Below are positions 18,652-56,642 of a DNA stretch of 64,000 bases, one piece after another. The stretch covers positions 744,001 through 808,000 of the forward strand of contig NZ_BNEA01000001.1 in NCBI RefSeq assembly GCF_016860525.1. Reading direction: 5' to 3'. The DNA is from Streptomyces rubradiris (GTDB lineage Bacteria; Actinomycetota; Actinomycetes; Streptomycetales; Streptomycetaceae). Below the pieces are notes generated by a model. It was not told the DNA's origin. It did not search any database and worked only from the letters and a program-made list of their open reading frames with translations. Made by a program: the position numbers and the translations under genes. The stretch's first letter is position 1. Each line of letters begins with the position of its first letter.

Positions 18652-18706
18652 CCGGACAGCGGGGGCGCGCGCAGGAGGCGTGCGTGCGTGCCGGTGAGAA
18701 CGCAGC

Positions 18707-18719
18707 GATGCTGCGCATC
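18707..18719. promoter_or_regulatory. Possible AsnC-type operator upstream of ddaH
   Basis: The inverted repeat GATGC-TGC-GCATC lies 93 bases before the ddaH start and 55 bases after the AsnC gene. The 13-base size resembles Lrp-type half-site pairs. Suggestive only. Confidence 0.3.
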
Positions 18720-18811
18720 TACGCAGCCTTTCGCGCTTGTCGGCCGTCTCCCTCCCTTCCTACCGTGGTGTCACCCCCTAGTGACACACAGGAAAGCGGA
18801 GGGAACCCTCT

Positions 18812-22025: not shown

Positions 22026-22657
22026 GAGGTCATCGTACGGGGGGCGTGCAACGGCGCACGGGCAAGGCCCTCCGACACACCCGCGCGCCCCGGTTCGGCT
22101 CGGCGGTGTGCGGGCAACCGAGCGGTGTACGACGCGTGGCGGTACTGGCCGCGGGGAACCGGGCACCCCTCGGACCCGGTACCCCCCCGGCTTGCCCGGC
22201 CCGTCACCGGCGCCCGCTGCACCGACCGACGAACACCGCTTATCCGCCCAATTCTTGATTTAACGGACCGCCGGAGTAATTACCATGCTCTGTCGGCGGG
22301 AACCGATGCGACCCATGCTGTCGGCATGAAACGCATGGGCGGTAGTTCGCCGACGGCCGTGTCTCGGGTCCCACGCGCATCCGGTGCTCGCTGGTCACCG
22401 AGTGCGGAAGAGCCCCGGTTGCCCTGACGGCGCCGAGGCGGCCGGCCGTTCCCGGGCCTCACCTGAGGAGGACCCGGTGGTGATGCTCCGCACGCACGTC
22501 CGTCCTCACGGTCTGCCGCGGTGCGAGTGCCGCCGTGCCCCTCGTTCCCGTCGTGTCCGTCGTGTCCGAGTCCACGGCCTCGTCGCCCGGCACGGCGGGC
22601 CGCGGGGGTCACGACGAGCGGCACACCACCCTGTATCGCGCCGAACCGGAGGAACCC
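22026..22657. other. Left edge of the NRPS-PKS cluster, non-coding
   Basis: 632 bases between the DUF6153 start and the MbtH start, so it carries divergent promoters. It includes an AT-richer island at 22240-22300. An AGGAGG at 22465-22471 is followed at a good distance by GTG/ATG codons (22477-22485). The Arg-rich frame they open runs out of frame into the MbtH gene and shows no family features, so I do not call it a gene. It could be a short leader. Confidence 0.5.
22255..22282 (+). promoter_or_regulatory. Candidate promoter for the NRPS operon
   Basis: TTGATT at 22255-22260, a 16-base spacer, then TAATTA at 22277-22282. This is one of the few AT-rich spots in the region and lies about 375 bases before the MbtH start on the coding strand. 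The -10 match is only partial. Confidence 0.35.
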
Positions 22658-22852
22658 ATGGACGACGACACCCGGTCCTACGTGGTCGTACTCAACGACG
22701 AGGAGCAGTACTCGATCTGGCCCGCCGACCGCGACCTGCCCCTCGGGTGGCGCGACGGAGGCGTCAGCGGGTCCAAGGCGGAATGCCTGGCCCACATCAA
22801 CGAAGCCTGGACGGACATGCGCCCGCTGAGTCTGCGCCGGGCCGCCCAGTAA
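22658..22852 (+). CDS. MbtH-like NRPS chaperone
   Basis: 64 residues. Small partner that binds adenylation domains and is often needed for their folding or activity. Signature residues are present: LNDEEQYSIWP, LPLGW and the C-terminal WTDMRPLSLR. A GGAGG 6 bases before the ATG at 22658 fixes the start. It lies immediately before NRPS 1 and marks the start of the biosynthetic operon. It probably serves all three adenylation domains. Confidence 0.95.
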   Translation: MDDDTRSYVVVLNDEEQYSIWPADRDLPLGWRDGGVSGSKAECLAHINEAWTDMRPLSLRRAAQ

Positions 22853-22896: not shown

Positions 22897-25800
22897 ATGG
22901 TGCTCAATGAATTTCACGTCCGGGTGGCCGAGGCGCCGGACGCGGTCGCGGTGCAGGACGGTGACCTGAGACTGACCTACCGAAACCTTGCCGCGCACGC
23001 GTCCGCTCTGGCGAGCGAGCTCACCGGGCGGGGGGTCGGCCAGGACAGCGTCGTGGCCGTCTACGCCGACCGGTCGGCGGAGCTGGTGGTCGCCGAGCTG
23101 GCCGTCCTGCTGGCGGGCGGGGCCTACCTGCCGCTGGACCCGGCCCACCCGGCCGCGCGGGTCCGCCAACTGCTCCAGGACTCCGGCGCCGTCGCGGTCC
23201 TCAGCACCGCGCCGCTGGTGTCCGGCGGGGCTCCGCTGGGCGACGACGTCCTGCTGGTCGATCTGACCGAGGAGCCTTCCCCGGCGACCGCCTCGGTGCC
23301 GCCCGGCCCGAACGGCGCCGCACTGGCCTACGTGATCTACACGTCGGGTTCCACCGGCCGGCCCAAGGGCGTCGCGGTGACCCACGCGAGCCTGGCCAAC
23401 CTGATGCACTGGCACCACAAGACCTACGGCACGCGGCCCCAGGACCGCTCGACCCTGCTGGCCAGTCCCGGATTCGACGTGTCCGTCCAGGACATCTGGT
23501 TCACCCTGACCGCCGGCGCCACGCTGGTGGTGCCGCCCGCCGAGGTGCGCGCCTCGCCGTCCGCGCTCGCCGCCTGGCTGGCGGACGAGCAGATCACCGT
23601 GTCCTTCCTGCCCACCCCGCTGGCCGAGGCCGTCCTCGACGAGGCCTGGCCCGCGCACACGGTGCTCAGGTACCTGCACACCGGTGGTTCGGCGATGCAG
23701 CGCGGCGTGCCCGAGGGGCTGCCGTTCACCGTGATCAACCTCTACGGGCCGACCGAAGCCACGGTGAAGGTGACGGCCGGCGAGGTCGTGCCCGAGGGAC
23801 CCGTGCCGCCGCCGATCGGCGTGCCGGTCGACGGCGTGCGCTGCTACGTGCTCGACGGGCTCGACCCGGTGCCCGACGGCGAGGTCGGCGAACTGTGCCT
23901 GGGCGGCGCGTGCGTGGCACGCGGATACCTGCACGACCCGGCGAGCACCGCGGCGGTGTTCGTGCCCGACATCGGCGCCCCGGGAGAGCGCATGTACCGC
24001 ACGGGCGACAAGGTCCGCCGCCGCCCGGACGGGGTCTTCGAGTACATCGGCCGCTACGACGACCAGGCCAAGATCCGCGGGTTCCGGATCGAACCCGGCG
24101 AGGTGGCCACGGTTCTCAAGCAGCACCCCGGCGTCCGGGACGCCTTCGTGGTGGTCGAACACTCCGGCCGGCCGGACGCGCGCCTGGTCGCCTACGCGGT
24201 CACCGGCGTCCCCACGACCGAGTTGGTCGAGTTCGTCGCGGCCCGGCTGCCCGGGTACATGGTGCCGGCAGCGGTCGTCGTGCTGCCCGCGCTGCCGCTC
24301 ACCCCCAACGGCAAGGTCGACCGCGCCGCATTGCCCGCCCCCGGCCGCACGGCGGCCGGCCTGGCCGACACCGCGGTCCCGCCCCGCACCCCGACCGAGG
24401 CCGCACTGGCCAGGATCGTGGCCGGGCTGCTCGGCGGCACCGAAGTCGGCGTCCACGACGACTTCTTCGCCCTCGGCGGGAACTCGCTGCTCGTCGCGGG
24501 GCTCGCCGCCCGCATCACCGCGGAACTGCACACGGTGGTGAGCGTGCCCGAGCTGTTCGGCGCGCCCACCGTCGCCGACCTCGCCGCGATCATCGACCAG
24601 CGGGCCGCCGCGGCCGGGAACAACGGCCCGGAACCCGCCGCCCAGGTGATCGCGCCGACCGCGCCGCCGGTGCGCCGGGCCGACCGGAACCGGCCGATCC
24701 CGCTGTCCCTGCCCCAGGAGAGGGTCTGGTTCTTCGAACAGCTCTCGCCCGGCAACCTGGCCTACAACTTCCAGGCCACCGTGTCCTTGCGGGGCGAGGT
24801 GGACGTAGACGCCCTGCGCGCGGCGCTCGACGAGATCGTCCGCCGCCACGAGATCCTGCGCACCGCCTTCGTCTCCGTCGACGGGGTGGGCTACCAGCGC
24901 CCGCTCGCGCAGGCCAAGGCGCCGCTCAAGGTCCTCGACGTCCCGGCGGAACAGGCCGACGAGGTCGTCGCCGCGCACCTGCGCGAACCGTTCGACCTGA
25001 CCGAACCGCCCCTGGCCCGCTGGGTCCTGCTGCGCCACGGCAACGGGCACAACACGTTCCTCCACGTGGAACACCACTTCGTCCACGACGGCTGGTCGCT
25101 GTCGGTGTTCCTGTCCGAGCTGCGCGCCCTCTACCCGGCCTTCGCCGCCGGACAGCCCTCGCCGCTGCCCGAACTCGCCGTCCAGTACGCGGACTACGCC
25201 ATCTGGCAGCGGGACTGGATGCGCGGTGACGTGCTGCGCACCCACGTCGACCACTGGACCGCCCGCCTGGCCGGCGCCCCGCACACGCTGGAACTGCCCG
25301 CCGACCGGCCACGGCCGCCGGTGATGACCTTCCGCGGCCGGGCGCCGCGGATCCGGATCCCCGCCGAACTGGCGCGCCGGCTGCGCGCCTTCAGCCGGGA
25401 CAACCGGGTGTCGCTGTTCTCCACCATGTACGCCGGCTTCGCCGCACTGCTGTACCGCTACACCGGACAGCGGGACATGCTCGTCGGGACCGGCGCGGCG
25501 AACCGGAACGTGCCCGAGCTGGAGCCACTGCTCGGCATGCTCGTCAACACGCTGGTCATGCGCACCAAGGTGTCGGCCGACCAGTCGTTCAGCGACTTGC
25601 TGGCGCAGGTGCGCCAGAGCGTCGCCGAGACACTGGCCTGGTCGGACACCCCCGTCGACGCGGTGATCGACGCGATCGACCCGGTCCGCGACCCTTCGCG
25701 CACCCCGCTGTTCCAGGTCATGTTCAGCTTCCACGACTCCGCGGTGCCCGACATCGACTTCGGCGGGCTCACCGGCAAGGTCACCGAACGCTCGAACAAC

Positions 25801-27975
25801 TCGGCCAAGGCCGACCTCAACGTGATCGTGATCCCGCGGGCCGAGCAGCGCCTGGGCCGGGCGCCCCGCCCCGAGGACGACGACCTCGCCATGATCTGGG
25901 AGCACTCGGCCGACCTGTTCGACCAAGCCACCATGGAGCGGATGGTCACGCACTACCTGACCCTGCTCGCCGACGCGGTGGCCCGGCCGCAGACGCGCGT
26001 GGGCACGCTGCGCCTGCTCCCGGACGAGGAGGCGGCCCAGCTGGAGAGCTGGTCCCACGGGCCCGCCGCGGCCGGCACCCGGCCGGTGACCGAGCTGATC
26101 GCACAGCAGGTGCGGACGCGACCGGACGCCGTCGCCGTGCGCTGGCCCGAGGGACAGCTCAGCTACGGACAGTTGTGGCAGCGCGCCGGCGCACTGGCCC
26201 GCCGGCTCCGCGCGTCCGGCATCGCCGCCGAGGAACCGGTGGCGGTGTACGCCGACCGCTCCCCCGAGCTGGTGGTCGGCGAACTCGCGGTGCTCATGGC
26301 CGGCGGATGCTACCTGCCCTTGGACCCGGACTACCCGGCCGAGCGCGTCGCCTTCATCGTGCGGGACGCCGGCGCCCGTACGATCCTCACCACGCCCCGG
26401 ACACGGCAGCAGCTGCCGGCCTTCGCGCAGAGCCTCGACGTCCTCGGCCTGGACGCCGACACAGACACCGACACCGACACCGCGCCGGTCCACGCCGACC
26501 AGCTCACCCCGGAGCGGCTGGCCTACCTCATCTACACCTCGGGATCCACCGGCCGGCCCAAGGGCGTCGCGCTGGAACACCGGGGGCTCGCGAACCTGGT
26601 CGCCTGGCACACAGCCGAGTACGCGCTCGGACCGGCCGACCGCAGCACACTGTTCGCCAGCCCCGGATTCGACGCGTCCACGTGGGAGATCTGGCCCACC
26701 CTCGCGGCCGGCGCCACCCTGCACGTCGTCCCGCCGCACCTGCGGGCCGCGCCGGCGGAACTGGTGCGCTGGCTCGGCGAGCAGAAGATCACCACGGCGT
26801 TCCTGCCCACCCCCGTCGCCGCGGCCGCACTGGACGAACCGTGGCCGGCCGACAGCGCGCTGCGGGCGCTGCTAACCGGCGGCGACGTGCTGCCGGCGGC
26901 ACCCTCCGACGGCCTGCCGTTCCAGCTCTTCAACCACTACGGGCCGACGGAGAACACCGTGGTGGCGACAGCGGGCCTCGTCCCGCCCGCCCCGGCCGGA
27001 CCGCGCCCGCCCATCGGCAGGCCGATCAGCGGGGTCGACGCCCATGTGCTGGACGCCGAAGGACAGCCCGTGCCCATCGGTGTCCGCGGCGAGCTGTACC
27101 TCGGCGGTACGGCGGTGGCGCGCGGCTACGTCAACCGCCCCGAACTCACCGAACAGAGTTTCCTCGCCGACCCCTTCACCGCTCGGCCCGGCGCACGCCT
27201 GTACCGCACCGGTGACCTGGTCCGCCGACGCGCCGACGGGGAGCTGGACTTCCTGGGCCGCGCGGACGAACAGGTCAAGATCCGGGGCTTTCGGATCGAG
27301 CCCGGAGAAGTGGCGGCAACGCTCAGGGAACACCCGGACGTACGGGACGCCGTCGTCGTCGCCCGCGCGTCGGCGCCCGGAGCCGAAGCCTCGCTCACGG
27401 CGTACGTCTGCACCGACGGCCGCGGCGAAACCACCTCCGGGGACAAGCTGCTGGCGTTCCTGCGGGACCGGCTGCCCGTGTACATGATCCCGGACGGGAT
27501 CGTGCTGCTCCCCGCCCTGCCGCTCACCGAACACGGCAAGGTGGACCACGACGCGCTGGCCGCCCTGGCACCGAGCACCCCGGCCCGGCCCCCCACACGG
27601 CAGGCGCCGCGGACACCGACGGAAGAACGCGTCGCCCGGCTCGCCTCGGCGCTGCTCCACGACCAGCCTGTGGGGCGCACGGACGACTTCTTCCGCGCCG
27701 GTGGCCACTCCCTGCTGGCGGCCCGGCTGGTGGCCCAGGTCAACGAGGCCTTCGACGTCCAGGTCCCGATCTCCGCGTTCCTCCAGCGGCCCACCGTGGC
27801 GAGCCTGGCGGACGCCGTGACCGCCGCCACGACAGGAGCGGCAACGGGCCCCGCCCCGATCACGCCGCGCAACCGCCGCATCGCCGTGCGGCCGGTGTCC
27901 GAAGCCGGCCGGCCCGGTGACGAGGAAGGCGAGTCGCTCCTGCGCGACACGCAGGAACCCGAGGTGCAGCAGTGA
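22897..27975 (+). CDS. NRPS 1: A-PCP-C-A-PCP
   Basis: 1692 residues. The order is A1 (about 1-480; A3 motif YTSGSTGRPKG near 147, GFRIEPGEV, NGKVDR), PCP1 (FALGGNSLL, Ser530), C (about 590-1030; HHFVHDG at 726) and A2 (about 1060-1560; YTSGSTGRPKG near 1212), PCP2 (RAGGHSLLAA, Ser1605). It has no N-terminal C domain, so A1 loads the starter amino acid (Asp235 of the ten-residue pocket code is kept). Hand-read codes: A1 DVQFHGLVKK, unassigned; A2 DAWFLGHVVK, one residue from the leucine code DAWFLGNVVK. The start is ambiguous: ATG 22897 has GAAGGA upstream at long spacing, while ATG 22885 has none. The stop overlaps NRPS 2 (GTGA). Confidence 0.95.
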   Translation: MVLNEFHVRVAEAPDAVAVQDGDLRLTYRNLAAHASALASELTGRGVGQDSVVAVYADRSAELVVAELAVLLAGGAYLPLDPAHPAARVRQLLQDSGAVAVLSTAPLVSGGAPLGDDVLLVDLTEEPSPATASVPPGPNGAALAYVIYTSGSTGRPKGVAVTHASLANLMHWHHKTYGTRPQDRSTLLASPGFDVSVQDIWFTLTAGATLVVPPAEVRASPSALAAWLADEQITVSFLPTPLAEAVLDEAWPAHTVLRYLHTGGSAMQRGVPEGLPFTVINLYGPTEATVKVTAGEVVPEGPVPPPIGVPVDGVRCYVLDGLDPVPDGEVGELCLGGACVARGYLHDPASTAAVFVPDIGAPGERMYRTGDKVRRRPDGVFEYIGRYDDQAKIRGFRIEPGEVATVLKQHPGVRDAFVVVEHSGRPDARLVAYAVTGVPTTELVEFVAARLPGYMVPAAVVVLPALPLTPNGKVDRAALPAPGRTAAGLADTAVPPRTPTEAALARIVAGLLGGTEVGVHDDFFALGGNSLLVAGLAARITAELHTVVSVPELFGAPTVADLAAIIDQRAAAAGNNGPEPAAQVIAPTAPPVRRADRNRPIPLSLPQERVWFFEQLSPGNLAYNFQATVSLRGEVDVDALRAALDEIVRRHEILRTAFVSVDGVGYQRPLAQAKAPLKVLDVPAEQADEVVAAHLREPFDLTEPPLARWVLLRHGNGHNTFLHVEHHFVHDGWSLSVFLSELRALYPAFAAGQPSPLPELAVQYADYAIWQRDWMRGDVLRTHVDHWTARLAGAPHTLELPADRPRPPVMTFRGRAPRIRIPAELARRLRAFSRDNRVSLFSTMYAGFAALLYRYTGQRDMLVGTGAANRNVPELEPLLGMLVNTLVMRTKVSADQSFSDLLAQVRQSVAETLAWSDTPVDAVIDAIDPVRDPSRTPLFQVMFSFHDSAVPDIDFGGLTGKVTERSNNSAKADLNVIVIPRAEQRLGRAPRPEDDDLAMIWEHSADLFDQATMERMVTHYLTLLADAVARPQTRVGTLRLLPDEEAAQLESWSHGPAAAGTRPVTELIAQQVRTRPDAVAVRWPEGQLSYGQLWQRAGALARRLRASGIAAEEPVAVYADRSPELVVGELAVLMAGGCYLPLDPDYPAERVAFIVRDAGARTILTTPRTRQQLPAFAQSLDVLGLDADTDTDTDTAPVHADQLTPERLAYLIYTSGSTGRPKGVALEHRGLANLVAWHTAEYALGPADRSTLFASPGFDASTWEIWPTLAAGATLHVVPPHLRAAPAELVRWLGEQKITTAFLPTPVAAAALDEPWPADSALRALLTGGDVLPAAPSDGLPFQLFNHYGPTENTVVATAGLVPPAPAGPRPPIGRPISGVDAHVLDAEGQPVPIGVRGELYLGGTAVARGYVNRPELTEQSFLADPFTARPGARLYRTGDLVRRRADGELDFLGRADEQVKIRGFRIEPGEVAATLREHPDVRDAVVVARASAPGAEASLTAYVCTDGRGETTSGDKLLAFLRDRLPVYMIPDGIVLLPALPLTEHGKVDHDALAALAPSTPARPPTRQAPRTPTEERVARLASALLHDQPVGRTDDFFRAGGHSLLAARLVAQVNEAFDVQVPISAFLQRPTVASLADAVTAATTGAATGPAPITPRNRRIAVRPVSEAGRPGDEEGESLLRDTQEPEVQQ

Positions 27976-30900
27976 GCGCGGCCATCGAACCGGAAGCCGG
28001 GCCGGACAACAGTGCGGCTCCGCTGTCGTACGCACAACAGCGCCTGTGGTTCCTCGACCAACTACAGCCGGGCAGCTCGGTCTACAACGTCCCGCTCGGC
28101 TACGACATCACCGGCCCGCTGGACCGCGGCGCGCTCGAACAGGCGCTGACCGAGGTCGTGCGGCGCCACGAGATCCTGCGCACCGCCTTCCGCTCCACCG
28201 GCGGCACCCCCCACCAGGTGATCCTGCCGCCCGCCCCGGTCTCCGTACCCGTCACGGACCTGACCGCTGCGGGCCGCACGCCGAAGGAGGCGCCGCGGCT
28301 CGCGGACGAGGAGGCCGGCGCCCCGTTCGACCTGGTGGCCGGCCGGCTCATCCGCGCCCGCCTGCTGCGCCTGGGCGAACAGCGGCACCGGCTGCTGCTC
28401 ACCGTGCACCACCTCGCCTGCGACGCCGCGTCGGTCGGCACGCTCGGCAGGGAGCTCGAGATCCACTACCGGGCCGCGCTGACCGGCCAGGAGTGCCGCG
28501 AGCCCGAACCGCCCATGCAGTACGCCGACTTCGCCGAGTGGCAGCACAGCACGCTGGGCGGACCCGAACTCGACCGGCTGCTGGCGTACTGGACGGACCG
28601 GCTGGCCGGCCTGCCCGCCCAGCTCCTGCCCACCGATCACACCCGCCCACCGGTACAGAGCTACCGCGGTGCCGCGCTCACCTTCGAGCTGCCGCCGGAT
28701 TCGGTCCAGCGGCTCGAAGAGCTGGGCAGGAGCGAAGGCGTCACCCTCTACAGCGTCCTGCTCGCCGCTTTCGCGGTACTGCTGCGGGCACACGTCGGCC
28801 AGGACGAAGTCGTCGTCGGCACGCCGGTCTCCGGCCGGGAACGGCCCGAACTGGCCCGTCTCATCGGGTTCTTCACCAACACCCTGGTGCTCCGCTGCGA
28901 CCTCGCCCACGGCCCGACGTTCCGTGAGCTGATCCAGCGGCTGTGGACGGAGGTCAAGGGAGCGCTCGCCCACCAGGACCTGCCGTTCGAAAAACTCGTC
29001 GAGGAACTGCACCCCGACCGCGACCTCGCGCACAACCCGCTGTTCCAGGTCCTGTTCAGCTACCGGTACGAAGACGAGGGAACGGGGCTGCGCCTGGACG
29101 GCTGCCAGGTGCAGCCGGTACTGGGCGACACCGGCGCGGCGAGGTTCGACCTCACCCTGAGCCTCACCCGGACCCCGGCCGGCGTGACCGGCCGCCTGGA
29201 GTACAGCACCGACCTGTTCCACGCCACGACCGCCCAGCGGCTCGCCGAACGGTACGTCAGCGTCGTCACCGCCGCCGCGCAGGCCCCCGACCGTCCCGTC
29301 GACGAACTGGCGGTGCTGCCGGCGGGCGAACTCGCCGCCCTGGCCGCCTGGCAGACCGGCCCCCGGGCCGAGGTCCCCGGCGCCCTGGTGCACCAGCTGT
29401 TCGAGCGGCGGGTGGCGGCGGCCCCCGACGCGGTCGCCGTGATCGCGGCCGACGCCACCTTGACCTACCGCGAGCTCGACGGGCTCGCCGACCGGCTCGC
29501 CGCCCGGTTGCGCCGACTCGGCGTGGCACCGGACGAACCGGTAGGCGTCCACCTCGGCCGCACGTCCCTGCTGATGGTCACCCTGCTGGGAATCCTCAAA
29601 GCGGGCGCGGCGTACCTTCCGCTGGATCCCGACTACCCGCCCGACCGGCTGGCGTTCATGGTCGGCGACGCCGGCGTGCGGCTGGTCGTCGCGGACTCCG
29701 GCTCCGCCGCGGCCGCGGAGCGCCTCGGCGCGGCCCACGTCGTCGTCCCCGGCCTTGCCGCGACGCCGGACGGCCCGCCCGACAGCCCACTCCCGGCGGT
29801 CACCGCCGACAACCTGGCGTACGTGATCTACACGTCCGGCTCCACCGGACAGCCCAAGGGCGTCATGGTCACCCACCGCAACGTGGTCAACCTGTTCGCC
29901 GGGATGAACGACGTCTTCGGCGCCGACGAGCCCAGCACCTGGCTCGCGCTGACCAGCGTCTCCTTCGACATCTCCGTGGTCGAGCTGCTGTGGGCGCTGA
30001 TCCACGGCCACCGGATCGTGCTGCGCCGTGAACCGCCCCTGCCGTCGGCCCTGGCCGCCGCGCGGTCGGCCGCGGTGGCCAAGGCCCGTGCCCGCCACAT
30101 CGACTTCAGCCTGCTCTACTTCGGCAGCGACTGCGAAGCCGGCTCCGACGACCGTTACCGGCTGCTGCTCGACGGCGCGAGGTTCGCCGACCGCAACGGC
30201 TTCACCGCCGTGTGGACCCCCGAACGCCACTTCCACCAGTTCGGCGGGCTGTACCCGAACCCCTCGGTGACGGCGGCGGCCGTCGCCGCGGTCACCGAGC
30301 GCGTCCAGGTGCGCGCGGGCAGCGTGGTCATGCCGTTGCACGACCCACTGCGCGTGGCCGAGGAATGGTCCGCCGTGGACAACATCTCGGCCGGCCGGGT
30401 CGGCATCTCCCTGGCGTCCGGCTGGCACGCCAACGACTTCACGCTCGCACCCGACCGGTACGACAAGCGCAAGCAGCTGATGATGGAGGGCCTCGCGGAG
30501 GTCCGCAGGCTGTGGCGCGGCGAGAAAGTGCCGCGGCGCAACGGCAACGGCGCCGAGGTCGAGGTCGGCGTCTTCCCCCGGCCCGTCCAACCGGAGCTGC
30601 CGGTGTGGCTGACCAGTGCCAGGCACCCGGAGACCTTCCGGATGGCGGGCGAGGCCGGCACCGGGGTGCTCACCCACCTCCTCGGACACAGCCTGGAGGA
30701 ACTGGCCGAGAAGATCGCGCTGTACCGCAGGACCTGGCGCGAGCACGGGCACGGACCCGGGGACGGCCACGTGGTGGTCATGGTCCACACGTTCGTCGGC
30801 CCGGACCTCGACGAGGTCCGCGAGCTGGTCCGGGAACCGATGAGCCGGTACCTGGAGACCTCTTTCGACCTGATCTCCTCGCTCGGCGTCACCACGCGAA

Positions 30901-32357
30901 GCGCCGAGGACTTCAAGGCGCTGCCCCCCGGGGAACTGCGGGAACTGATCGACCGGGCATTCGACCGGTTCTTCGCCACCGCCAGCCTGCTCGGCACACC
31001 GCAGGTCTGCGCCGACATGGTGGACCGGATGAAGGCCACCGGCGTCGACGAGGTCGCCTGCCTGATCGACTTCGGTGTCGAGGAGAAAGCGGCACTCGAC
31101 GCCCTGACCCACCTGAACACCGTCAGGGAGATCAGCGACGAGCGCAGGAACGCCGCGCTGGCCGAGGCCGAGGAACCGATAGCCGAACAGCTGCGCGAGC
31201 ACGCGGTGACCCACCTGCAGTGCACGCCGTCCCTGGCCCGCGCCCTGCTGGCCGACCAGGACGCGCGCGCCCGGCTGCGCGGGCTCGACCGGCTGCTGGT
31301 GGGCGGGGAAGCGCTCCCCGCGGACCTGGCCCGCGAACTCGCCGGCACCGTCGCGGGCACGGTCCACAACATGTACGGGCCGACCGAGGCCGCGGTCTGG
31401 GCGACGACGTCCCGGATACCGCCCGACGGCGGCCCGGTGACCATCGGGCGGCCGCTGGCGAACGTACGGGCCTACGTGGTCGACCGCGACATGCGGCCGT
31501 GTCCGACGGGCGTGCCCGGGGAACTGCTGCTCGGCGGGGAGGGCGTGGTCAGGGGCTACTTCCACCGCACACAGGTGACCGCCGAACGCTTCCAGCCCGA
31601 CCCGTTCGCCGGCCGGCCCGGCGCGCGTGTCTACCGCACGGGCGACCTGGCCCGCTGGACACCCGACGGCACACTCGAATTCCTCGGCCGGCTCGACGAC
31701 CAGGTCAAGCTGCACGGCCACCGGATCGAACTCGGCGAGATCGAGACCACGCTCGCCGAACACCCCGGTGTCCGCTCGGCCGCCGCCGTCATCCGGGGCA
31801 CCGGCGCGGAACAGCGGATCACCGGCTACTACGTTCCGGCGCCCGACCGGCCCGCGACCGCCACCGGACTGCGCGCCTTCCTCGCCACCCGGCTGCCCGG
31901 CTACATGCTGCCGAGCGTCCTCCACCCCATCGACGCGATGCCGTTGACCCCGAACAAAAAGGTCGACCGCAGGGCACTGCCCGACCTGTCGGACGCGCGG
32001 CCCGAGGGCACGACCGCGTACGCGCCGCCGACCACCCCGACCGAACGGCTGGTCACCGAGGTGTGGCGGGAGGTACTCGGCGTGGACCGGGTGGGCCTGG
32101 ACGACAGCTTCTTCGAACTCGGCGGGAACTCGCTGCTCGTGGTCGTGGCCAGGGCACGCCTGCTCGAACACCGCGACAGTGGGCTGTCGTTGGTGGACAT
32201 GTTCAGCTACCCGTCCGCCCGCGCACTCGCCGAGGCCATCGACCGCAAGCCGGCCGAAGGACTCGATGCGGCGGTCGGCGCGGGCGCCGCCCGGGCCGCC
32301 GCCCGCCGCGTCGCGGGCCGGGCCGCCGCGCGCCGAGCGGGCAGGACGGGGGCGTGA
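27972..32357 (+). CDS. NRPS 2: C-A(luciferase-like monooxygenase insert)-PCP
   Basis: 1461 residues from GTG. C domain about 10-450, with active site HHLACDA (Ala in place of the usual Gly). The adenylation domain starts near 490 (A3 YTSGSTGQPKG about 618; A4 FDISVVELLWAL from 665). At about 705-1050 an FMN-dependent luciferase-like monooxygenase is inserted (HIDFSLLYFGS, TPERHFHQFGGLYPNPS, GRVGISLASGWHANDF). The adenylation domain then resumes (NMYGPTEAAV near 1133; NKKVDR), followed by a PCP (FELGGNSLLV, Ser1387). Hand-read pocket code DIVQLGMVWK, close to glycine (DILQLGLIWK). The same insert position, between A4 and A5, is known from glycine modules of myxothiazol-type pathways, where it oxidises the glycine alpha carbon. 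The reading frame is continuous. Confidence 0.95.
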   Translation: MSAAIEPEAGPDNSAAPLSYAQQRLWFLDQLQPGSSVYNVPLGYDITGPLDRGALEQALTEVVRRHEILRTAFRSTGGTPHQVILPPAPVSVPVTDLTAAGRTPKEAPRLADEEAGAPFDLVAGRLIRARLLRLGEQRHRLLLTVHHLACDAASVGTLGRELEIHYRAALTGQECREPEPPMQYADFAEWQHSTLGGPELDRLLAYWTDRLAGLPAQLLPTDHTRPPVQSYRGAALTFELPPDSVQRLEELGRSEGVTLYSVLLAAFAVLLRAHVGQDEVVVGTPVSGRERPELARLIGFFTNTLVLRCDLAHGPTFRELIQRLWTEVKGALAHQDLPFEKLVEELHPDRDLAHNPLFQVLFSYRYEDEGTGLRLDGCQVQPVLGDTGAARFDLTLSLTRTPAGVTGRLEYSTDLFHATTAQRLAERYVSVVTAAAQAPDRPVDELAVLPAGELAALAAWQTGPRAEVPGALVHQLFERRVAAAPDAVAVIAADATLTYRELDGLADRLAARLRRLGVAPDEPVGVHLGRTSLLMVTLLGILKAGAAYLPLDPDYPPDRLAFMVGDAGVRLVVADSGSAAAAERLGAAHVVVPGLAATPDGPPDSPLPAVTADNLAYVIYTSGSTGQPKGVMVTHRNVVNLFAGMNDVFGADEPSTWLALTSVSFDISVVELLWALIHGHRIVLRREPPLPSALAAARSAAVAKARARHIDFSLLYFGSDCEAGSDDRYRLLLDGARFADRNGFTAVWTPERHFHQFGGLYPNPSVTAAAVAAVTERVQVRAGSVVMPLHDPLRVAEEWSAVDNISAGRVGISLASGWHANDFTLAPDRYDKRKQLMMEGLAEVRRLWRGEKVPRRNGNGAEVEVGVFPRPVQPELPVWLTSARHPETFRMAGEAGTGVLTHLLGHSLEELAEKIALYRRTWREHGHGPGDGHVVVMVHTFVGPDLDEVRELVREPMSRYLETSFDLISSLGVTTRSAEDFKALPPGELRELIDRAFDRFFATASLLGTPQVCADMVDRMKATGVDEVACLIDFGVEEKAALDALTHLNTVREISDERRNAALAEAEEPIAEQLREHAVTHLQCTPSLARALLADQDARARLRGLDRLLVGGEALPADLARELAGTVAGTVHNMYGPTEAAVWATTSRIPPDGGPVTIGRPLANVRAYVVDRDMRPCPTGVPGELLLGGEGVVRGYFHRTQVTAERFQPDPFAGRPGARVYRTGDLARWTPDGTLEFLGRLDDQVKLHGHRIELGEIETTLAEHPGVRSAAAVIRGTGAEQRITGYYVPAPDRPATATGLRAFLATRLPGYMLPSVLHPIDAMPLTPNKKVDRRALPDLSDARPEGTTAYAPPTTPTERLVTEVWREVLGVDRVGLDDSFFELGGNSLLVVVARARLLEHRDSGLSLVDMFSYPSARALAEAIDRKPAEGLDAAVGAGAARAAARRVAGRAAARRAGRTGA

Positions 32358-32406: not shown

Positions 32407-34929
32407 GTGAGTACCGGCATGGAAGACGCAGTGGAGCCGATCGCGGTCGTGGGGCTCGCCGGCCGGCTGCCGGGAGCCCCCACCATCGAGGCGTTCTGGC
32501 GCAACCAGCGCGACGGCGTCGAATCGGTCACCAGGTTCAGTACCCGGCAACTGGTCGACGCCGGCTGGCCGCGGGACATGGTCACCCACCCCGACTACGT
32601 ACCCGCCGCCGCGGTCATCGAGGACGCCGACCATTTCGACGCCGAGTTCTTCGGATACACCGGGGAGCAGGCGCGGATCAGCGACCCACAGCAGCGGATC
32701 TTCGCCGAATGCGTCTGGCACGCGCTCGAGGACACCGGACACGACCCGTCGCGGTTCGACGGCTCCGTAGGCGTCTACGCCGGCTGCTTCGCCAACAAGT
32801 ACCTGCCCCTGAACCTCCTGGCGAACGCGCGGTTCCGCGGATCGCTGTCGGCCTTCTCCGCCCGCCCCTACAACGACAAGGACTTCCTCGCGACCAGGGC
32901 GGCATACCTGTGCGACCTCCGCGGGCCCGCGATGACCGTGCAGTCGGCGTGCTCCACCTCGCTCGTCGCCATCCACCTCGCCTGCCAGGCGTTGCTGGGC
33001 CACGAGTGCGACATGGCACTGGCGGGAGGAGTGGCACTGCCCGTCCCGCTGATCGGCGGCTACCCCGTCGTCGCGGGCGGCATCTTCGCGCGTGACGGCC
33101 ACTGCCGGCCCTTCGACGCCGCCTCCGGCGGAACCGTGCCCGGCTACGGCGTCACGGTCGTGGCACTGCGCAGGCTCAGCGACGCGCTCGCGGACAACGA
33201 CCACATCCGCGCACTCGTCCTGGGCAGCGCGGTCAACAACGACGGCTCGGCGAAATTCGGCTTCAACGCGCCGAGCATGCAGGCACAGGCCGAGGTGATC
33301 GCCACCGCCCAGGCCGTCGCCGGGGTGGCGCCGGAGAGCATCGGCTACATCGAAGCCCACGGCACAGGCACTCCGCTCGGTGACCCGATCGAGGTGGCCG
33401 GCCTCACCAAGGCCTTCAACACCGGCGAACGCGGGTTCTGCGCGATCGGCTCGGCGAAGGCCAACATCGGCCATCTGGACGCCGCCGCGGGAGCGGCGGG
33501 CTTCGCCAGGGCGGTGCTGGCCCTCGAACACGGCGAGATCCCGCCGAGCATCAACTTCGACACACCCAACCCGGCCCTGCTGCTGGACCGCACACCGTTC
33601 TACGTCCCGACCACCGCCCGCCCCTGGCCACGCGGCGCGACGCCGCGGCGCGCCGGAGTCAGCGCCTTCGCGGTCGGCGGTACCAACGCCCACCTGGTCC
33701 TCCAGGAGGCACCGGCACCGCGGGCCGCCGAGCCGGACCCACGCGACCGGCAACTGCTCGTGCTGTCCGCCCGCAGCGGCAAGGCCCTGGCGGACGCCGC
33801 GAGGGACCTCGCCGACCGCCTGGACCGCCAGGACGACCTCGACCTCGCCGACGTCGCCCACACCCTGCAGGCCGGCCGTCGCGCGTTTCCGCTCCGCCGG
33901 CACCTGGTGTGCCGCGACCGGGCCGAGGCGACGGCCGCCCTGCGGGCACTGGCCCGGCCCGGCACCGTGGACACCGCCGACGACGCGGAGGCCCGCCAGG
34001 TGGTCTTCATGTTCCCCGGCAGCGCCGCCCACCGGCCGGACGCCGCCACGGCGGTCCACCGCGCCGAACCGGTCTTCGCCCGGGAAGTGGACCGCTGCGC
34101 CGAACTGGCACGGCCCCTGCTCGGCTACGACCTGCGCGCGCTGCTCTTCCCGTCCACCTGGGACGGCCCGCGGACCGGGCACGACGACCCGCGCGGCGTG
34201 CCGCTCGCGGCCTTCGGCCTGCAGTGGGCCCTCGCACGGCTGTGGCAGTCATGGGGAGTGCACCCCACCGCGATGGCCGGCGAAGGCGACGGCGAGTACG
34301 TGGCGGCCTGCCTGGCCGGCGTGATCGACCTGGCGGACGCCCTCGGCATCACGGCCGCCGACGCCGAGGCCCGCTCCCACGCCGGGGCAGGCGGGGTGCC
34401 CGACACGTACGTGTCCGCGTTCGCCGCCAAGGTGGCACACCACGAGCTCGAACCGCCGCAGGTGCCGTACGTCTGCACGGCCACCGGCGGCTGGATCACC
34501 CCCCAGGACGCCACGGAGCCGGCCCACTGGGCGCGCCACCTGCGCGAGGCGGCCCCCTTCGCCGCCGGCCTGCGGGAACTGGCCGGCGACGACGGCCGGA
34601 TCCTGCTGGAGGTGGGGCCGGACAGCACACTGACCGAAGCCGTCGCCCGGCAGGAGACGGCGAAGCGGCTGACGGCGCTGCCGTCGCTGGCCCCCGCGCA
34701 CGGGGGCCGGTCCGGCCTCACCGCGCTGTACGACACCGTCGGCAGGCTCTGGCGGTCCGGCGTCGACATCGACTGGGACGCCTTCCGCGGCACAACGCGA
34801 CCGCGGCGGGTGTCCCTGCCGGGCTACCCGTTCCAGCGCAGCCGCTACTGGATCGGCCCCGACTCCGGCAGTTACGAACCACTGGGTTTGGAGGAGGCGT
34901 CATGGACGAGCCACTCGTCGCCATCGTAG
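32407..34929 (+). CDS. PKS: ketosynthase with vestigial acyltransferase, no ACP
   Basis: 840 residues from GTG 32407 (GAGGGGGG about 6 bases upstream). The ketosynthase is complete: Cys182 in QSACSTSL, His318 in EAHGTGTPLGD and His356 in ANIGHLDAAAG. The AT homology begins near 530 (FMFPGSAAH) but is degenerate. The GHSxG nucleophile motif reads GEGDG (Gly627 for Ser), and roughly 100 residues that normally carry the AFHS region are missing between EARSHAGAGG and VAHHELEPPQVPYVC. The post-AT tail PGYPFQRSRYW is kept. There is no KR, ACP or TE. The end overlaps fkbK by 28 bases. It follows NRPS 2 by 49 bases and probably takes the peptidyl chain from its PCP. Confidence 0.93.
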   Translation: MSTGMEDAVEPIAVVGLAGRLPGAPTIEAFWRNQRDGVESVTRFSTRQLVDAGWPRDMVTHPDYVPAAAVIEDADHFDAEFFGYTGEQARISDPQQRIFAECVWHALEDTGHDPSRFDGSVGVYAGCFANKYLPLNLLANARFRGSLSAFSARPYNDKDFLATRAAYLCDLRGPAMTVQSACSTSLVAIHLACQALLGHECDMALAGGVALPVPLIGGYPVVAGGIFARDGHCRPFDAASGGTVPGYGVTVVALRRLSDALADNDHIRALVLGSAVNNDGSAKFGFNAPSMQAQAEVIATAQAVAGVAPESIGYIEAHGTGTPLGDPIEVAGLTKAFNTGERGFCAIGSAKANIGHLDAAAGAAGFARAVLALEHGEIPPSINFDTPNPALLLDRTPFYVPTTARPWPRGATPRRAGVSAFAVGGTNAHLVLQEAPAPRAAEPDPRDRQLLVLSARSGKALADAARDLADRLDRQDDLDLADVAHTLQAGRRAFPLRRHLVCRDRAEATAALRALARPGTVDTADDAEARQVVFMFPGSAAHRPDAATAVHRAEPVFAREVDRCAELARPLLGYDLRALLFPSTWDGPRTGHDDPRGVPLAAFGLQWALARLWQSWGVHPTAMAGEGDGEYVAACLAGVIDLADALGITAADAEARSHAGAGGVPDTYVSAFAAKVAHHELEPPQVPYVCTATGGWITPQDATEPAHWARHLREAAPFAAGLRELAGDDGRILLEVGPDSTLTEAVARQETAKRLTALPSLAPAHGGRSGLTALYDTVGRLWRSGVDIDWDAFRGTTRPRRVSLPGYPFQRSRYWIGPDSGSYEPLGLEEASWTSHSSPS

Positions 34930-35756
34930 GCGCGGGCGTCATGGGCACCGGGATCTCGACGCTCGTCGTCGGACACGGACTGCCCGTCGTACTGGTGGAC
35001 ATCGACGAAGGCGTGCTGGAGCGCGCCGCCGCCGCGACCGCCGGCGGCCTGCGGCACGCGACGCTGATGGGCGCGCTGCCGGCCGGGCGCGCCCCGGCGC
35101 GGCTGCGCACCACACTGTCGCTGGACGAGGTCGCCGACGCCGCGGTGGTCATCGAGGCGGTCACCGAACTGCCCGAGAGGAAGGCGGAAGTCCTCGCCGG
35201 CGTCTCGGCGCTGGTGCGCCCCGGCACGCCCCTGATCACCAACACCTCCGGCATACCCATCGACGAAATGGCCGCGTGGGTGAAGAGCCCGGGCGATCTC
35301 ATCGGAACGCACTTCATGAACCCCGCGTACCTGATCTCGATGGTCGAGGTGATCCGCGGCCCGCGGACCGCGGACGGGACCGTCGAGTCGGTACTCTCGC
35401 TGCTGACCCGGATCGGCCGGCGCGCGGTGGTGGTCCGTGACGCCCCCGGGTTCGTGACCAGCCGGCTGCTGCACCCGATGATCAACGACGCGGCGCGGGT
35501 GGTCGGCGCCGGCACCGCCACCGTCGAGGACGTGGACACCCTGATGCAGGGCTGCCTCGGGCATCCGACGGGCCCGCTGCGCACCGCGGACCTGATCGGC
35601 ATCGACAACCTCGTCGACGCTCTGGAGGCGCTGTACGCCCGGACCGGTGACGAGCGGTGCCGTCCCAGCGAACTCCTTCTCGAAAAGGTCCGGCGAGGCG
35701 AACTCGGCCGAAAGAGCGGCCGCGGCTTCTACAACTACAGTGAGGCACAGTCATGA
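34902..35756 (+). CDS. FkbK-like 3-hydroxyacyl dehydrogenase (extender-unit synthesis)
   Basis: 284 residues. 3-hydroxybutyryl-CoA dehydrogenase family: NAD Rossmann motif VAIVGAGVMGTGISTLVV, catalytic His in IGTHFMNPAYLISMVEVIRG, and the C-terminal helical domain ending GRKSGRGFYNY. In methoxymalonyl-ACP pathways this enzyme oxidises the hydroxymethyl of glyceryl-ACP towards the acid. GAGGAGG lies 5 bases before the ATG. It is followed by the ACP gene with an ATGA overlap. Confidence 0.9.
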   Translation: MDEPLVAIVGAGVMGTGISTLVVGHGLPVVLVDIDEGVLERAAAATAGGLRHATLMGALPAGRAPARLRTTLSLDEVADAAVVIEAVTELPERKAEVLAGVSALVRPGTPLITNTSGIPIDEMAAWVKSPGDLIGTHFMNPAYLISMVEVIRGPRTADGTVESVLSLLTRIGRRAVVVRDAPGFVTSRLLHPMINDAARVVGAGTATVEDVDTLMQGCLGHPTGPLRTADLIGIDNLVDALEALYARTGDERCRPSELLLEKVRRGELGRKSGRGFYNYSEAQS

Positions 35757-36049
35757 CAGCGGAACAGCAGACCGACAAGGCGCCCTTCGACGTGGACGCC
35801 GTCATCGACGAGATCACCGGGTTCGTGGCCGAGCAGACCCGCACCAGGCCCGGGGTGGACCAGGATCTCTTCGTCACCGGGGTCGCCAACTCCATGTTCG
35901 CCATGCAGCTGGTCGTGTTCCTTGAGCAGACCTTCTCCGTGACGGTCGCCGGACCGGACTTGCAGCTGACCAACTTCCGCACGGTCGAGAGCATGGCCGC
36001 GCTCGTCGGCCGGCTCCGGGCGGAGTCCGCCGCAGCCAGCGATGTCTGA
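35753..36049 (+). CDS. FkbJ-like freestanding acyl carrier protein
   Basis: 98 residues. The phosphopantetheine serine is Ser47 in GVANSMFAMQLVVF, the FkbJ-type motif rather than the GxDSL of PKS carrier proteins. It carries glycerate-derived C3 units as they become hydroxymalonyl- or methoxymalonyl-ACP. It starts in an ATGA overlap with fkbK and overlaps the dehydrogenase gene by 8 bases. Because the cluster's KS protein has no ACP, this carrier may also receive the elongated chain (inference). Confidence 0.92.
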   Translation: MTAEQQTDKAPFDVDAVIDEITGFVAEQTRTRPGVDQDLFVTGVANSMFAMQLVVFLEQTFSVTVAGPDLQLTNFRTVESMAALVGRLRAESAAASDV

Positions 36050-37178
36050 GCCGCTCCGGCCGGGGAGCGAGGACATCTGGCGTCTCGTCGAGGACAACGC
36101 CGGCGCGTGGGACATCGCCGGTGAGATCCCCCGGACCGTCCTGAGCCAACTGGGCGCCGCCGGCGTACTCTGCGCCGAAGTGCACAAGCAGTACGGCGGA
36201 CTCGGCCTGGGCAGCCAGGAGAGCGGGAGGCTCACCGCCCACGCCGGGAGCCTGTGCAGCTCCGTGCGCAGTGTGATGACCTCGCAGGGCATGGCGGCGT
36301 GGACCGTGCAACGCCTCGGCACCGCCGACCAGCGGGCCGTGTTCCTGCCGCAGTTGACCAGCGGCCGGCTCGCGGCCGTCGCCTTCAGCGAGCCGGACGC
36401 CGGCAGCGACCTCGGCGCGATGACCACCGAGCTGCGGTTCGCCGGCGACGCGGTGATCGTGGACGGCAGCAAGACGTGGATCACCGCCGCGGCCTATGCC
36501 GACCTGATCGTCGTCATCGGGAAAGCGGGCGGCGAGGCGGCAGCGGTCATCGTGCCCACGAACGCCGAGGGCGTCAGCATCGAGAAGGTCCCGCACCCGA
36601 TGGGCTGCCGTGCGGCGGGCCACGCGCGGGTGCGGCTGGACGGTGTGCGCCTGCCGGCCTCCAACGTCCTCGGCGGCACCGGGCTGTCGCTGCCGTTCCT
36701 GGTGACGACTGCCCTGGCCTACGGCCGGATGTCGGTGGCATGGGGTTGCGTCGGCATCCTGCGCGGCTGCCTCGGCGCGGTGACCGAACACGCGCGAACG
36801 CGGCGGCAGTTCGGCAAACCGATAGCGGAGCACCAGCTGGTCTCCCGCAGGATCGCCGAGCTCTACGCCGCCGAGCGGGTCGCCACCGCGGTGTGCCGGC
36901 AGGCCGGCGACTGCTGGGAGTCGGGGTCGCCGGACCTCGTGATCGCCACCGTTCTCGCCAAGCACGTCAGCGCGACCCAGGCGGTGCGCGCGAGCGCGTC
37001 GGCCATGCAGATCATGGCCTCGGCGGGCGCGTCGGACGGCCACGTGGTCGCCCGCGCCTACCGGGACGCGAAACTGATGGAGATCATCGAGGGCAGCAGC
37101 GAGATATGCCAGCTCGAACTCGCCAGACACGCTCTGGCGACCGGGCACGGCACGGCGCGGCAGGAGGAGGCCCAGTGA
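36042..37178 (+). CDS. FkbI-like acyl-ACP (acyl-CoA) dehydrogenase
   Basis: 378 residues. Acyl-CoA dehydrogenase fold with FAD motifs [14 protein letters not shown] and VDGSKTWITAAAYAD, ARTRRQFGKPIAEHQLV, and the C-terminal IIEGSSEICQLEL that holds the glutamate base. In the FK520-type pathway this protein works with FkbK on the ACP-bound C3 unit. It sits between the ACP and FkbH genes with short overlaps, so all four are one translational unit. Confidence 0.9.
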   Translation: MSEPLRPGSEDIWRLVEDNAGAWDIAGEIPRTVLSQLGAAGVLCAEVHKQYGGLGLGSQESGRLTAHAGSLCSSVRSVMTSQGMAAWTVQRLGTADQRAVFLPQLTSGRLAAVAFSEPDAGSDLGAMTTELRFAGDAVIVDGSKTWITAAAYADLIVVIGKAGGEAAAVIVPTNAEGVSIEKVPHPMGCRAAGHARVRLDGVRLPASNVLGGTGLSLPFLVTTALAYGRMSVAWGCVGILRGCLGAVTEHARTRRQFGKPIAEHQLVSRRIAELYAAERVATAVCRQAGDCWESGSPDLVIATVLAKHVSATQAVRASASAMQIMASAGASDGHVVARAYRDAKLMEIIEGSSEICQLELARHALATGHGTARQEEAQ

Positions 37179-38269
37179 GCGGAGCACTGCCACCGAACGA
37201 ACCGGTCACCACCGTCAAGTGTGTCGTCTGGGACCTGGACAACACCCTGTGGAAGGGCACCCTGCTCGAAGGCGACGACGTGACCGTCGACGACCGGGTC
37301 CACGAGACCATCGTGGGCCTCGACTCCCGCGGCATCCTTCAGGCGGTCGCCAGCAAGAACGACCACGGCCCGGCATGGGAGCGCCTGGAGGACCTCGGCA
37401 TCGCCCAGTACTTCGTGCTCGCCAGGATCGGCTGGGGCCCGAAGTCCGCGTCGGTCCGGGAGATCGCCGACGAGTTGAAGTTCGCCCACCACACGATCGC
37501 CTTCGTCGACGACCAGCCGGCCGAACGCGCCGAGGTGGCCTTCCACCTGCCGCAGGTGCGCTGCTATCCGGCCGAGTCGGCGCCCGGACTGCTGTCGCTG
37601 CCCGAGTTCACCCCGGCGACCGTGACCGCCGACTCGCGCCGCCGCCGCGAGATGTACCAGGCGAACGCGCGGCGCCAGGCCGAGCAGGAGTCGTTCGACG
37701 GCCCGTCCCAGGAGTTCCTGCGCTCGCTGGACCTCGCGATGGACATCCGCCGGGCCACCGCCGACGACCTGTCCCGGATGGAGGAGCTGACACTGCGCAC
37801 CAGCCAGATGAACGCGACCGGTGTCCACTACTCCGACGCCGACCTGCGCGCCCTCCTGGACGACGCACGCCACGAGGTCCTCGCGGTGACGATGAGCGAC
37901 CGCTTCGGGTCGCACGGAGCGGTCGGTGTCGCGCTCGTGGAGACCGGGGCGGCGGTGTGGCACCTGAAGCTCCTGGCCACCTCGTGCCGGGTCGTCTCCT
38001 ACGGCGCCGGCGCCACCGTACTGAACTGGCTGATCGGCGAGGCGGCGACGGCCGGCACCCATCTGGTCGCGGACTTCCGGCCGACCGAACGCAACCGGAT
38101 CATGGAAGTCGCCTACCGGTTCACCGGGTTCACCGACGAGCTCTGTGCCTGCCTCGCCGAACTGCCGCCGCCGCGGGACGGGCGGACGCAGCGCCTGCAC
38201 ATCACACCGGCACCGAAACCGGCGCCCTGCACGATACGTCTCACCACCGTCCCCCTGACCACGACCTGA
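37175..38269 (+). CDS. FkbH-like glyceryl-ACP synthase (HAD family)
   Basis: 364 residues from GTG 37175, with AGGAGG 7 bases upstream; it overlaps the previous stop. N-terminal HAD phosphatase-like domain: VVWDLDNTLWKGTL (nucleophile Asp), ASKNDHG and IAFVDDQPAERAEV. The C-terminal half (about 190-340) is GNAT-like (MEELTLRTSQMNATG, VWHLKLLATSCRVV). It moves glycerate from 1,3-bisphosphoglycerate onto the ACP with loss of phosphate, the first step of methoxymalonyl- and hydroxymalonyl-ACP synthesis. It is the last gene of the rightward operon, followed by a strong hairpin. Confidence 0.92.
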   Translation: MSGALPPNEPVTTVKCVVWDLDNTLWKGTLLEGDDVTVDDRVHETIVGLDSRGILQAVASKNDHGPAWERLEDLGIAQYFVLARIGWGPKSASVREIADELKFAHHTIAFVDDQPAERAEVAFHLPQVRCYPAESAPGLLSLPEFTPATVTADSRRRREMYQANARRQAEQESFDGPSQEFLRSLDLAMDIRRATADDLSRMEELTLRTSQMNATGVHYSDADLRALLDDARHEVLAVTMSDRFGSHGAVGVALVETGAAVWHLKLLATSCRVVSYGAGATVLNWLIGEAATAGTHLVADFRPTERNRIMEVAYRFTGFTDELCACLAELPPPRDGRTQRLHITPAPKPAPCTIRLTTVPLTTT

Positions 38270-38464: not shown

Positions 38465-39139
38465 TCACCTCTTGCGGGCGAGTGTGATCCCGTCGGCCAT
38501 CGTGAGCATCGAGACGTCCACGCGCGGATCGTCGCGCAGCGACGCGTTGAGCGCCCGTACCGCGGCGGTGTCCGGGTCGTGGCTGTCCGGGTCGACCACT
38601 CGGCCGAAGAAGAGCGTGTTGTCGATGACCACCAGCCCCTTCGGTCGCACGAGGTGGAGCGCGGCCTCGTAGTACGCCCCGTAGTTGGCTTTGTCCGCGT
38701 CGATGAACACGAGGTCGAAACTCGCTTCGCCCCGCTCGTCGGCGAGGGCGGCGAGCGTCCGCGTCGCGTCACCGATGCGGACGTCTATGCGTTCGGCGAC
38801 CCCGGCGCGCTGCCAGTACGCGGCGCCGATCGCCGGCCAGCGCCCGTTGAGGTCGAGGGTGACCACCGTGCCGTCCGGTGGCAGCGCACGTGCCATGCAC
38901 AGCGTGCTGTAGCCGGTGAAGGTGCCGATCTCCAGCACCGATCCGGCACCGGACAGGCTGACGAGGAGCGCCAGCAGCTGGCCTTCCTCGGCCATGACCT
39001 GCATGGCCGGGCCGCCCGGCAACCCCGCGGTCTCCTCGCGGAGTTCGGCCAGGACCGGGTCCTCGCGCAGGGACACGGCGCGGACGTACTCGCGGATTTC
39101 CGGTGTCGCCACGATCTGGTCTGCCATGCCGGGGCTCAC
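38465..39139 (-). CDS. FkbG-type O-methyltransferase (caffeoyl-CoA OMT family)
   Basis: 224 residues from the GTG at 39139 (GTGA overlap with the upstream methyltransferase), or 220 from the ATG at 39127. SAM motif [18 protein letters not shown], the acidic motif VVTLDLN, metal/active-site segments [14 protein letters not shown] and [12 protein letters not shown]. This class I, divalent-metal family includes FkbG, which methylates hydroxymalonyl-ACP. With FkbHIJK opposite, the best reading is that it converts hydroxymalonyl-ACP to methoxymalonyl-ACP. Methylation of the finished product is the alternative. Confidence 0.9.
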
Positions 39140-53464: not shown

Positions 53465-54138
<674 letters not shown>

Positions 54139-54239
54139 GGACGGCTCCTTGTGCGAGAGGCCTTGTACCGGTCGGGGGGACAAGAGGTACCGGCCGGGGG
54201 CGGAAGCTGTTGTTCAGACGGGTGGGCGGAAGGGCGGGC

Positions 54240-54928: not shown

Positions 54929-56642
<1,714 letters not shown>

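Follow-up and report, generated by a model that had tools for sequence, protein, structure and literature searches.

A glycine-type peptide synthetase module with an embedded luciferase-like monooxygenase adjoins a ketosynthase with a degenerate acyltransferase in Streptomyces rubradiris

The window investigated in this study, a stretch of 64,000 nucleotides from Streptomyces rubradiris (contig NZ_BNEA01000001.1, positions 744,001 to 808,000), contains a gene cluster centred on NRPS2, a nonribosomal peptide synthetase (NRPS) whose adenylation (A) domain is interrupted by a luciferase-like monooxygenase (MOX). This build, here denoted A[MOX], is already known and widespread, as reflected in a named family, a solved relative and a wide distribution, and the distinctive feature of the cluster is its setting rather than the interrupted domain, namely a stripped-down polyketide step that occurs in few related clusters. 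The step involves KS-AT0, a protein combining a ketosynthase (KS) with a degenerate acyltransferase (AT), and an adjacent set of extender-type genes. As best explanation for the whole arrangement we propose that the alpha carbon of a peptidyl-glycine would be oxidised and that the chain would subsequently be extended once by a unit preloaded on a discrete acyl carrier protein (ACP), a proposal to which we give an even chance.

NRPS2 is encoded on the forward strand (27972-32357) by a single unbroken open reading frame of 1461 amino acids, in which Pfam and NCBIfam models define the order C-A[MOX]-PCP, with C and PCP referring to condensation and peptidyl carrier domains. The C domain (28017-29342; Pfam Condensation, residues 16-457) contains its HHxxxD motif as HHLACDA, where an alanine replaces the usual glycine. 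The first half of the A domain (29400-30056), with its motif A4 (FDISVVELLWAL), corresponds to the best stretch of AMP-binding (residues 477-695, positions 1-245 of a model of 384), and its second half (31167-31961), extending from A5 (NMYGPTE) to A10, is recognised by the A-domain model TIGR01733, whose best stretch resumes at residue 1066 (model position 200 of 409), and by AMP-binding_C (residues 1256-1330). It is followed by the peptidyl carrier domain (32049-32240; PP-binding, residues 1360-1423). The break is thus located behind A4 and ahead of A5, with both halves intact and in the same frame, which agrees with the description in an earlier note made from the letters of the sequence. 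The insert (30105-31127) matches TIGR04020 at full length (residues 712-1052, positions 1-341 of 341, E = 4.7e-152), with a score of 506 bits compared to a curated cut-off of 244.45, as had been sought by the domain search which that note proposed, and Pfam Bac_luciferase covers residues 722-1027 (E = 1.9e-53 for the whole protein). It resides inside the interval previously assigned to it (30085-31135), although its length by profile is 341 instead of about 345 residues. Chance or mis-assembly as source of this build are ruled out by the profile scores and the agreement of five genomes.

In a predicted structure of the NRPS2 A domain, the A fold is intact and continuous, with the oxygenase looped out. 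This model aligns with EntF over 486 residues at 2.3 Å (by VIA-align, which was used for the re-ranking of Foldseek matches only), and the predicted monooxygenase superimposes on the structure 6KET with a target TM-score of 0.93 and an rmsd of 2.4 over 345 columns at 51% identity. As modelled, the insert has an intact luciferase-like fold and, with positions conserved among its relatives, it may be a hydroxylase of a carrier-bound substrate that depends on reduced flavin mononucleotide (FMNH2).

The substrate pocket of NRPS2 is lined by D, I, V, Q, L, G, M, V and W together with the lysine of A10, which reproduces the code DIVQLGMVWK that had been read by hand. For the pocket segment contributed by the second half, the best solved sequence is 5u89 (DhbF), which we take to activate glycine and which contains Q, L, G, L, I, W where NRPS2 has Q, L, G, M, V, W. 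Four of the six visible positions are equal and the other two conservative, thus supporting the glycine-like pocket that the note had proposed. If each half of the A domain is searched whole, the best solved match is LgrA, whose second module presumably likewise takes glycine, with other pocket residues. The pocket was further compared in an alignment of 69 rows, comprising 67 of the 80 related loci introduced below, the window and L001; eight loci whose A domain is interrupted twice, as well as L061, L082, L099 and L118, were left out, and L122 was dropped for unidentified residues. The consensus over these rows is D-I-[LV]-Q-x-G-[MVL]-[IV]-W. Positions 235, 236, 278, 301 and 331 and the A10 lysine are invariant in all 69 rows, with D, I, Q, G and W each found in 69 of 69, position 239 is leucine in 65 rows and valine in four, and the nine-letter code of NRPS2 is seen in four. 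Collectively, these features strongly suggest that the A domain of NRPS2 activates glycine, and the near-invariant pocket points to an early acquisition of the oxygenase by a glycine domain, with which it remained as downstream partners changed. The fact that the insert stays with one glycine-type pocket, irrespective of the downstream context, also argues against an action of the MOX on another residue or on an extended beta-keto chain, either by alpha-hydroxylation or by chain cleavage of the Baeyer-Villiger type. Such activity would find a parallel in CalD and MndB, described as chain-shortening enzymes in PMC8739492, but we regard it as quite improbable for NRPS2.

The gene content of the cluster, from an MbtH-like protein to an exporter of the major facilitator superfamily (MFS), is shared, with some rearrangement, by five genomes from three genera, which we refer to as type B. 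Besides the window, these are G346 and G703 from the same genus, Amycolatopsis oliviviridis (L044/G101) and Actinokineospora spheciospongiae EG49 (L043/G100, the same place as G637). In the four other genomes, the identity to the window amounts to 79-90% for NRPS1, 81-91% for NRPS2 and 76-91% for KS-AT0 (over about 840 amino acids), the HHLACDA motif is identical (L043, L044, G346, G703), and the window, L043, L044 and G346 have identical pocket residues in NRPS1. A KS-AT0 of the type B kind was found in two of 392 genomes of the genus and three of 394 of the class, in even draws that both include the own genome and that differ in their thresholds, with the two best candidates per genome scored. 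A second group, type A, encompasses ten loci (G006, G222, L045-L050, L052 and L063) and resembles type B in the order NRPS1-NRPS2-KS (L045 begins inside NRPS1) and, for the nine rows present in the monooxygenase tree, in a common group with support of 100/99. In contrast to type B, it has an intact AT motif GHSLGEY, a KS-AT-ACP-reductase chain and other NRPS1 pockets. This chain was defined by Pfam in G006 as KS-AT-PCP-NAD_binding_4 (thioester reductase type) and assigned to eight named type A loci by similarity to G006, whereas G222 was matched for the KS-AT part alone; no FkbH-type gene set came up in the type A stretches that were read. Because EG49 and G703 each carry both types, the two are no simple replacements of each other.

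KS-AT0 (32407-34929, forward strand) is encoded next to NRPS2. The note had stated that a KS follows the module, which holds for the downstream position of the KS but not for its connection, since it is located on a separate protein and not on the NRPS2 chain. The KS cysteine and HGTGTPLGDP are intact in the four type B sequences checked, and the second histidine motif reads NIGHLDAAAG in the window. In the AT, GEGDGEY replaces GHSLGEY and some 60-70 further residues are gone compared to type A. GHSLGEY is kept in all nine aligned type A rows and the motif is lost in all five type B genomes, whose identical loss rules out a frameshifted AT. Pfam detected neither a PP-binding match nor a release domain within 32407-34929, and KS-AT0 therefore has neither the GHSxG-type AT nor the ACP on the same chain that characterise a functional AT-containing module of a polyketide synthase (PKS). 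The claim that the module is not the last one is thus correct insofar as NRPS2 contains no thioesterase and a KS protein comes next, but this protein is no normal extension module. We have also considered that KS-AT0 is a decaying pseudogene and the real product just the tripeptide. The missing nucleophile motif and residues would be in line with decay, but the described conservation of the protein in four further genomes that share this loss and the intact KS motifs in four tested sequences make it very improbable. A PKS step with a nucleophile-less AT beside a discrete ACP supply bears on a move of extender choice from the AT to the carrier protein.

Downstream of KS-AT0, four consecutive forward-strand genes with overlapping ends encode a 3-hydroxyacyl-CoA dehydrogenase family protein (34902-35756; Pfam 3HCDH_N/3HCDH), a discrete ACP (35753-36049; a weak PP-binding match with its serine in VANSMFAMQLV), an acyl-CoA dehydrogenase family protein (36042-37178; by domain search) and an FkbH-domain protein (37175-38269; TIGR01686, 355.3 bits, cut-off 146.65). 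By position, we take the first three to be FkbK-, FkbJ- and FkbI-like. A class I O-methyltransferase on the reverse strand (38465-39139; Pfam Methyltransf_3, with 5lhm as best solved relative) is a candidate for providing the extender methyl group. Pathway-specific models for the ACP, the two dehydrogenases and the O-methyltransferase did not come up in the NCBIfam search; the Pfam families are present and in order. By family and order, we assume the set to resemble those for methoxymalonyl-ACP (FkbG-K type), and the extender would be of the methoxymalonyl or the hydroxymalonyl type.

In the proposed pathway, NRPS1 (22897-27975, forward strand; A-PCP-C-A-PCP by Pfam in a scan from 22885) would build a dipeptide on its second PCP. 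Its pocket codes, read by hand, are DVQFHGLVKK and DAWFLGHVVK, the second of which we consider leucine-like. NRPS2 would then activate glycine and join the dipeptide to it, and the built-in FMNH2-dependent MOX would hydroxylate the alpha carbon of either the PCP-tethered glycine or the peptidyl-glycine. The alpha-hydroxyglycine that had been deduced in the note appears in this light as plausible. KS-AT0 would accept the peptidyl-(alpha-hydroxy)glycyl chain and condense it with a methoxymalonyl- or hydroxymalonyl-type unit, resulting in an ACP-bound chain of the form peptidyl-NH-CH(OH)-CO-CH(OR)-CO-S-ACP. Since the extender would come preloaded on the discrete ACP, no working AT would be needed in KS-AT0. 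Release would probably proceed via ring closure of the tetramate or tetronate type or by a separate hydrolase. If, as we guess, the glycine nitrogen or the new hydroxyl closed the ring onto the ACP thioester, no thioesterase would be required. It is also possible, although we advance this with considerable reservation, that type B constitutes an undescribed short line with a glycine oxidised in cis, a single extension by an AT-less KS with a discrete methoxymalonyl-type ACP and thioesterase-free release, whose product would be a peptide capped by a ring that is formed from alpha-hydroxyglycine and a methoxy-C2 unit. Examples of such a cap would be an N-acyl 5-hydroxy-3-methoxytetramate or a 5-acylamino tetronate. 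We know of no compound that would fit the type B product. With three assembly-line proteins, one extender and no thioesterase found, type B is a compact and conserved example that lends itself to testing.

The setting of A[MOX] modules in other bacteria was analysed in the best 80 of at least 569 relatives obtained by scanning genome contigs with five embedded modules as queries. This set holds near-copies such as L060/L061 and L096/L112; the next domain was counted if located within 600 bases of A[MOX]-PCP, and the detection of an upstream C domain depends on contig ends and a 300-base gap rule. KS is the most frequent downstream partner of A[MOX]-PCP in this sample, with 36 of 80 loci, 16 with and 20 without a detected upstream C domain, followed by C (10 of 80), and by other or no domains (33 of 80), with the PCP missing in one. 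Ten of the 36 belong to type A or type B sister clusters and 26 do not. A following KS, by which the note had set the module apart, is thus no such mark, and this context table rules out that the module is unusual on that account. Less common than a following KS as such is its combination with a preceding C, which outside the sister clusters is observed in only six of the 80 loci. Among the 33 loci with other or no domains, seven tails are long enough to be checked and six of these contain thioesterases on the same chain (6 of 80 overall). As separate observations, L054, L059, L064, L085 and 16 further loci from several phyla have the order A[MOX]-PCP-KS with no C detected upstream and might be loading modules for oxidised glycine. 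In eight of the 80 (L077, L096, L110, L112, L113, L114, L119 and L121), a second insert late in the second half of the A domain holds a Pfam methyltransferase (FkbM type in L119, Methyltransf_12/31 types in the others), which makes these A domains doubly interrupted. In L037, a second MOX-like stretch (8424-9563) is found outside the A-domain match, in the same region as the embedded one in G058.

The wider distribution is illustrated by TIGR04020 matches above cut-off in 38 of 100 genomes, with the own genome included and free-standing and embedded forms taken together. Among 72,556 plasmid records, 27 matches were found at E values of 1e-100 or better, all below 60% identity; 25 of these cover at least 80% of the query, and 16 of the 25 listed already carry the TIGR04020 name.

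The thioesterases found in relatives are relevant for a different outcome, an oxidative cleavage as in the myxothiazol and melithiazol lines, where alpha-hydroxyglycine breaks and the dipeptide would leave as primary amide, with KS-AT0 and the extender genes acting elsewhere or on a glyoxylyl remnant. This process would be based on the same domain build and would also account for the missing release domain. However, all five type B genomes retain the KS, ACP and extender genes alongside the module, and type A likewise retains KS-AT-ACP-reductase, which is better suited to a chain that is handed on, and we thus consider cleavage to be unlikely.

The monooxygenase tree, calculated from the 69-row alignment, includes three of the five type B genomes and nine type A rows. 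The window groups with L043 and L044 (100/100), and this trio sits within a 12-member group with the nine type A rows, which carries the support quoted above. Type A is not monophyletic, as L052 joins type B (99/82), and across the rest of the tree downstream contexts are mixed and change often. In the half containing the window, 29 of 31 rows have a detected C domain, compared to 6 of 38 in the other half; this split is weakly supported (78/89), and the tree has a midpoint root. This distribution concerns the possibility that the MOX oxidises the glycine nitrogen, leading to an N-hydroxyglycine, oxime or nitrone type of product. Such oxidation is known from oxime-bearing lines with a loading A[MOX]-PCP-KS, and the 20 KS-followed loci where no upstream C was detected would suit a free amine. 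In NRPS2, in contrast, a C domain with HHxxxD precedes the A domain, so that the nitrogen would normally be acylated, and the window belongs to the half of the tree that is rich in C domains. Oxidation at nitrogen appears therefore rather unlikely.

In a 120-row A-domain tree, a quick build without bootstrap, the 69 interrupted domains are found together, except for one uninterrupted Paenibacillus domain on a long branch among them (L116_A1), and the nearest uninterrupted A domains include the three of 49 with a glycine-resembling pocket motif. A single early insertion into a glycine A domain would be the simplest reading of this pattern, for which the tree gives no proof.

Several points weigh against the oxidation of the glycine carbon followed by a single extension. 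The sequence does not separate carbon from nitrogen oxidation, and the mixed contexts of the tree together with the placement of L052 suggest that the reaction is not determined by context alone. Pfam scans revealed no release domain, with NRPS2 lacking a thioesterase and KS-AT0 a release domain. The first NRPS1 code, DVQFHGLVKK, has no substrate assignment, and the match of the discrete ACP is weak (22.9 versus 20.8 bits). An NADPH-dependent FMN reductase (48369-48986, forward strand; Pfam FMN_red, 85.4 bits) is a candidate source of FMNH2 for the MOX, present in three of five type B genomes (the window and two others) and with kin in seven of ten type A loci. The searches did not recover it in the stretches of about 39 kb covered for the type B loci of Amycolatopsis and Actinokineospora or in three of ten type A loci, of which one ends a little further on. 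Finally, PMC8739492 also describes luciferase-like monooxygenases (LLMs) that shorten chains.

Other genes complete the cluster. The MbtH-like protein (22553-22852, forward strand; Pfam MbtH, 78.5 bits) has kin in all five type B genomes. Next to the O-methyltransferase, the reverse strand encodes a methyltransferase dependent on S-adenosylmethionine (39136-39954; Pfam Methyltransf_25) and a LuxR-type regulator (39951-41228; Pfam GerE). Found in all five type B genomes are an NAD(P)-binding protein (41709-42380; Pfam NAD_binding_10) and a winged-helix regulator (42632-43168; domain search) on the reverse strand and, on the forward strand, identified by domain and similarity searches, an M20 dipeptidase-like protein (43252-44577), an S9 prolyl-oligopeptidase-type hydrolase (44574-46349) and the MFS exporter (46748-48217). 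The M20 and S9 genes (43252-46349) overlap by four bases and are candidates for roles in self-protection, trimming or release. Beside the cluster, an AsnC-type regulator, a dimethylargininase/arginine dihydrolase and an ornithine aminotransferase are located in a row (18166-20838); the arginine dihydrolase and ornithine transaminase genes (18827-20838) were rejected as cluster members, as the regions covered in the four other type B genomes did not reveal them. At 52700-56659, the reverse strand carries urease accessory genes (UreD, UreG-like and UreF) and encodes a urease alpha subunit.

Oxygenase-containing glycine modules are found in many bacterial phyla and, to our knowledge, the fate of the oxidised glycine in continuing chains is largely open. 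In the myxothiazol and melithiazol lines, an LLM oxygenase separates A4 from A5 in a glycine-type A domain, and the module is terminal and gives an amide. In the window, by contrast, the module lacks a thioesterase and is followed by a KS protein and a set of extender genes, and is thus not terminal in the same sense. According to PMC8739492, alpha-hydroxylation is a described or proposed activity of LLM oxygenases in other lines. As a full-length match to TIGR04020, the family of MupA/Atu3671-type FMN-dependent luciferase-like monooxygenases, the insert of NRPS2 belongs to a family that includes free-standing members, whereas the NRPS2 member sits inside an A domain. With PuwE, a flavin monooxygenase domain of a hybrid PKS/NRPS line whose solved chain in 6KET comprises 362 amino acids and was matched over its monooxygenase part only, it has motifs in common along all 341 residues, although the substrate of PuwE is presumably not glycine. 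Compared to FkbG-K sets for methoxymalonyl-ACP, the window contains the FkbH domain, the ACP, the two dehydrogenases and a nearby O-methyltransferase, and its set differs in that it adjoins a KS whose AT is degenerate and whose chain lacks an ACP.

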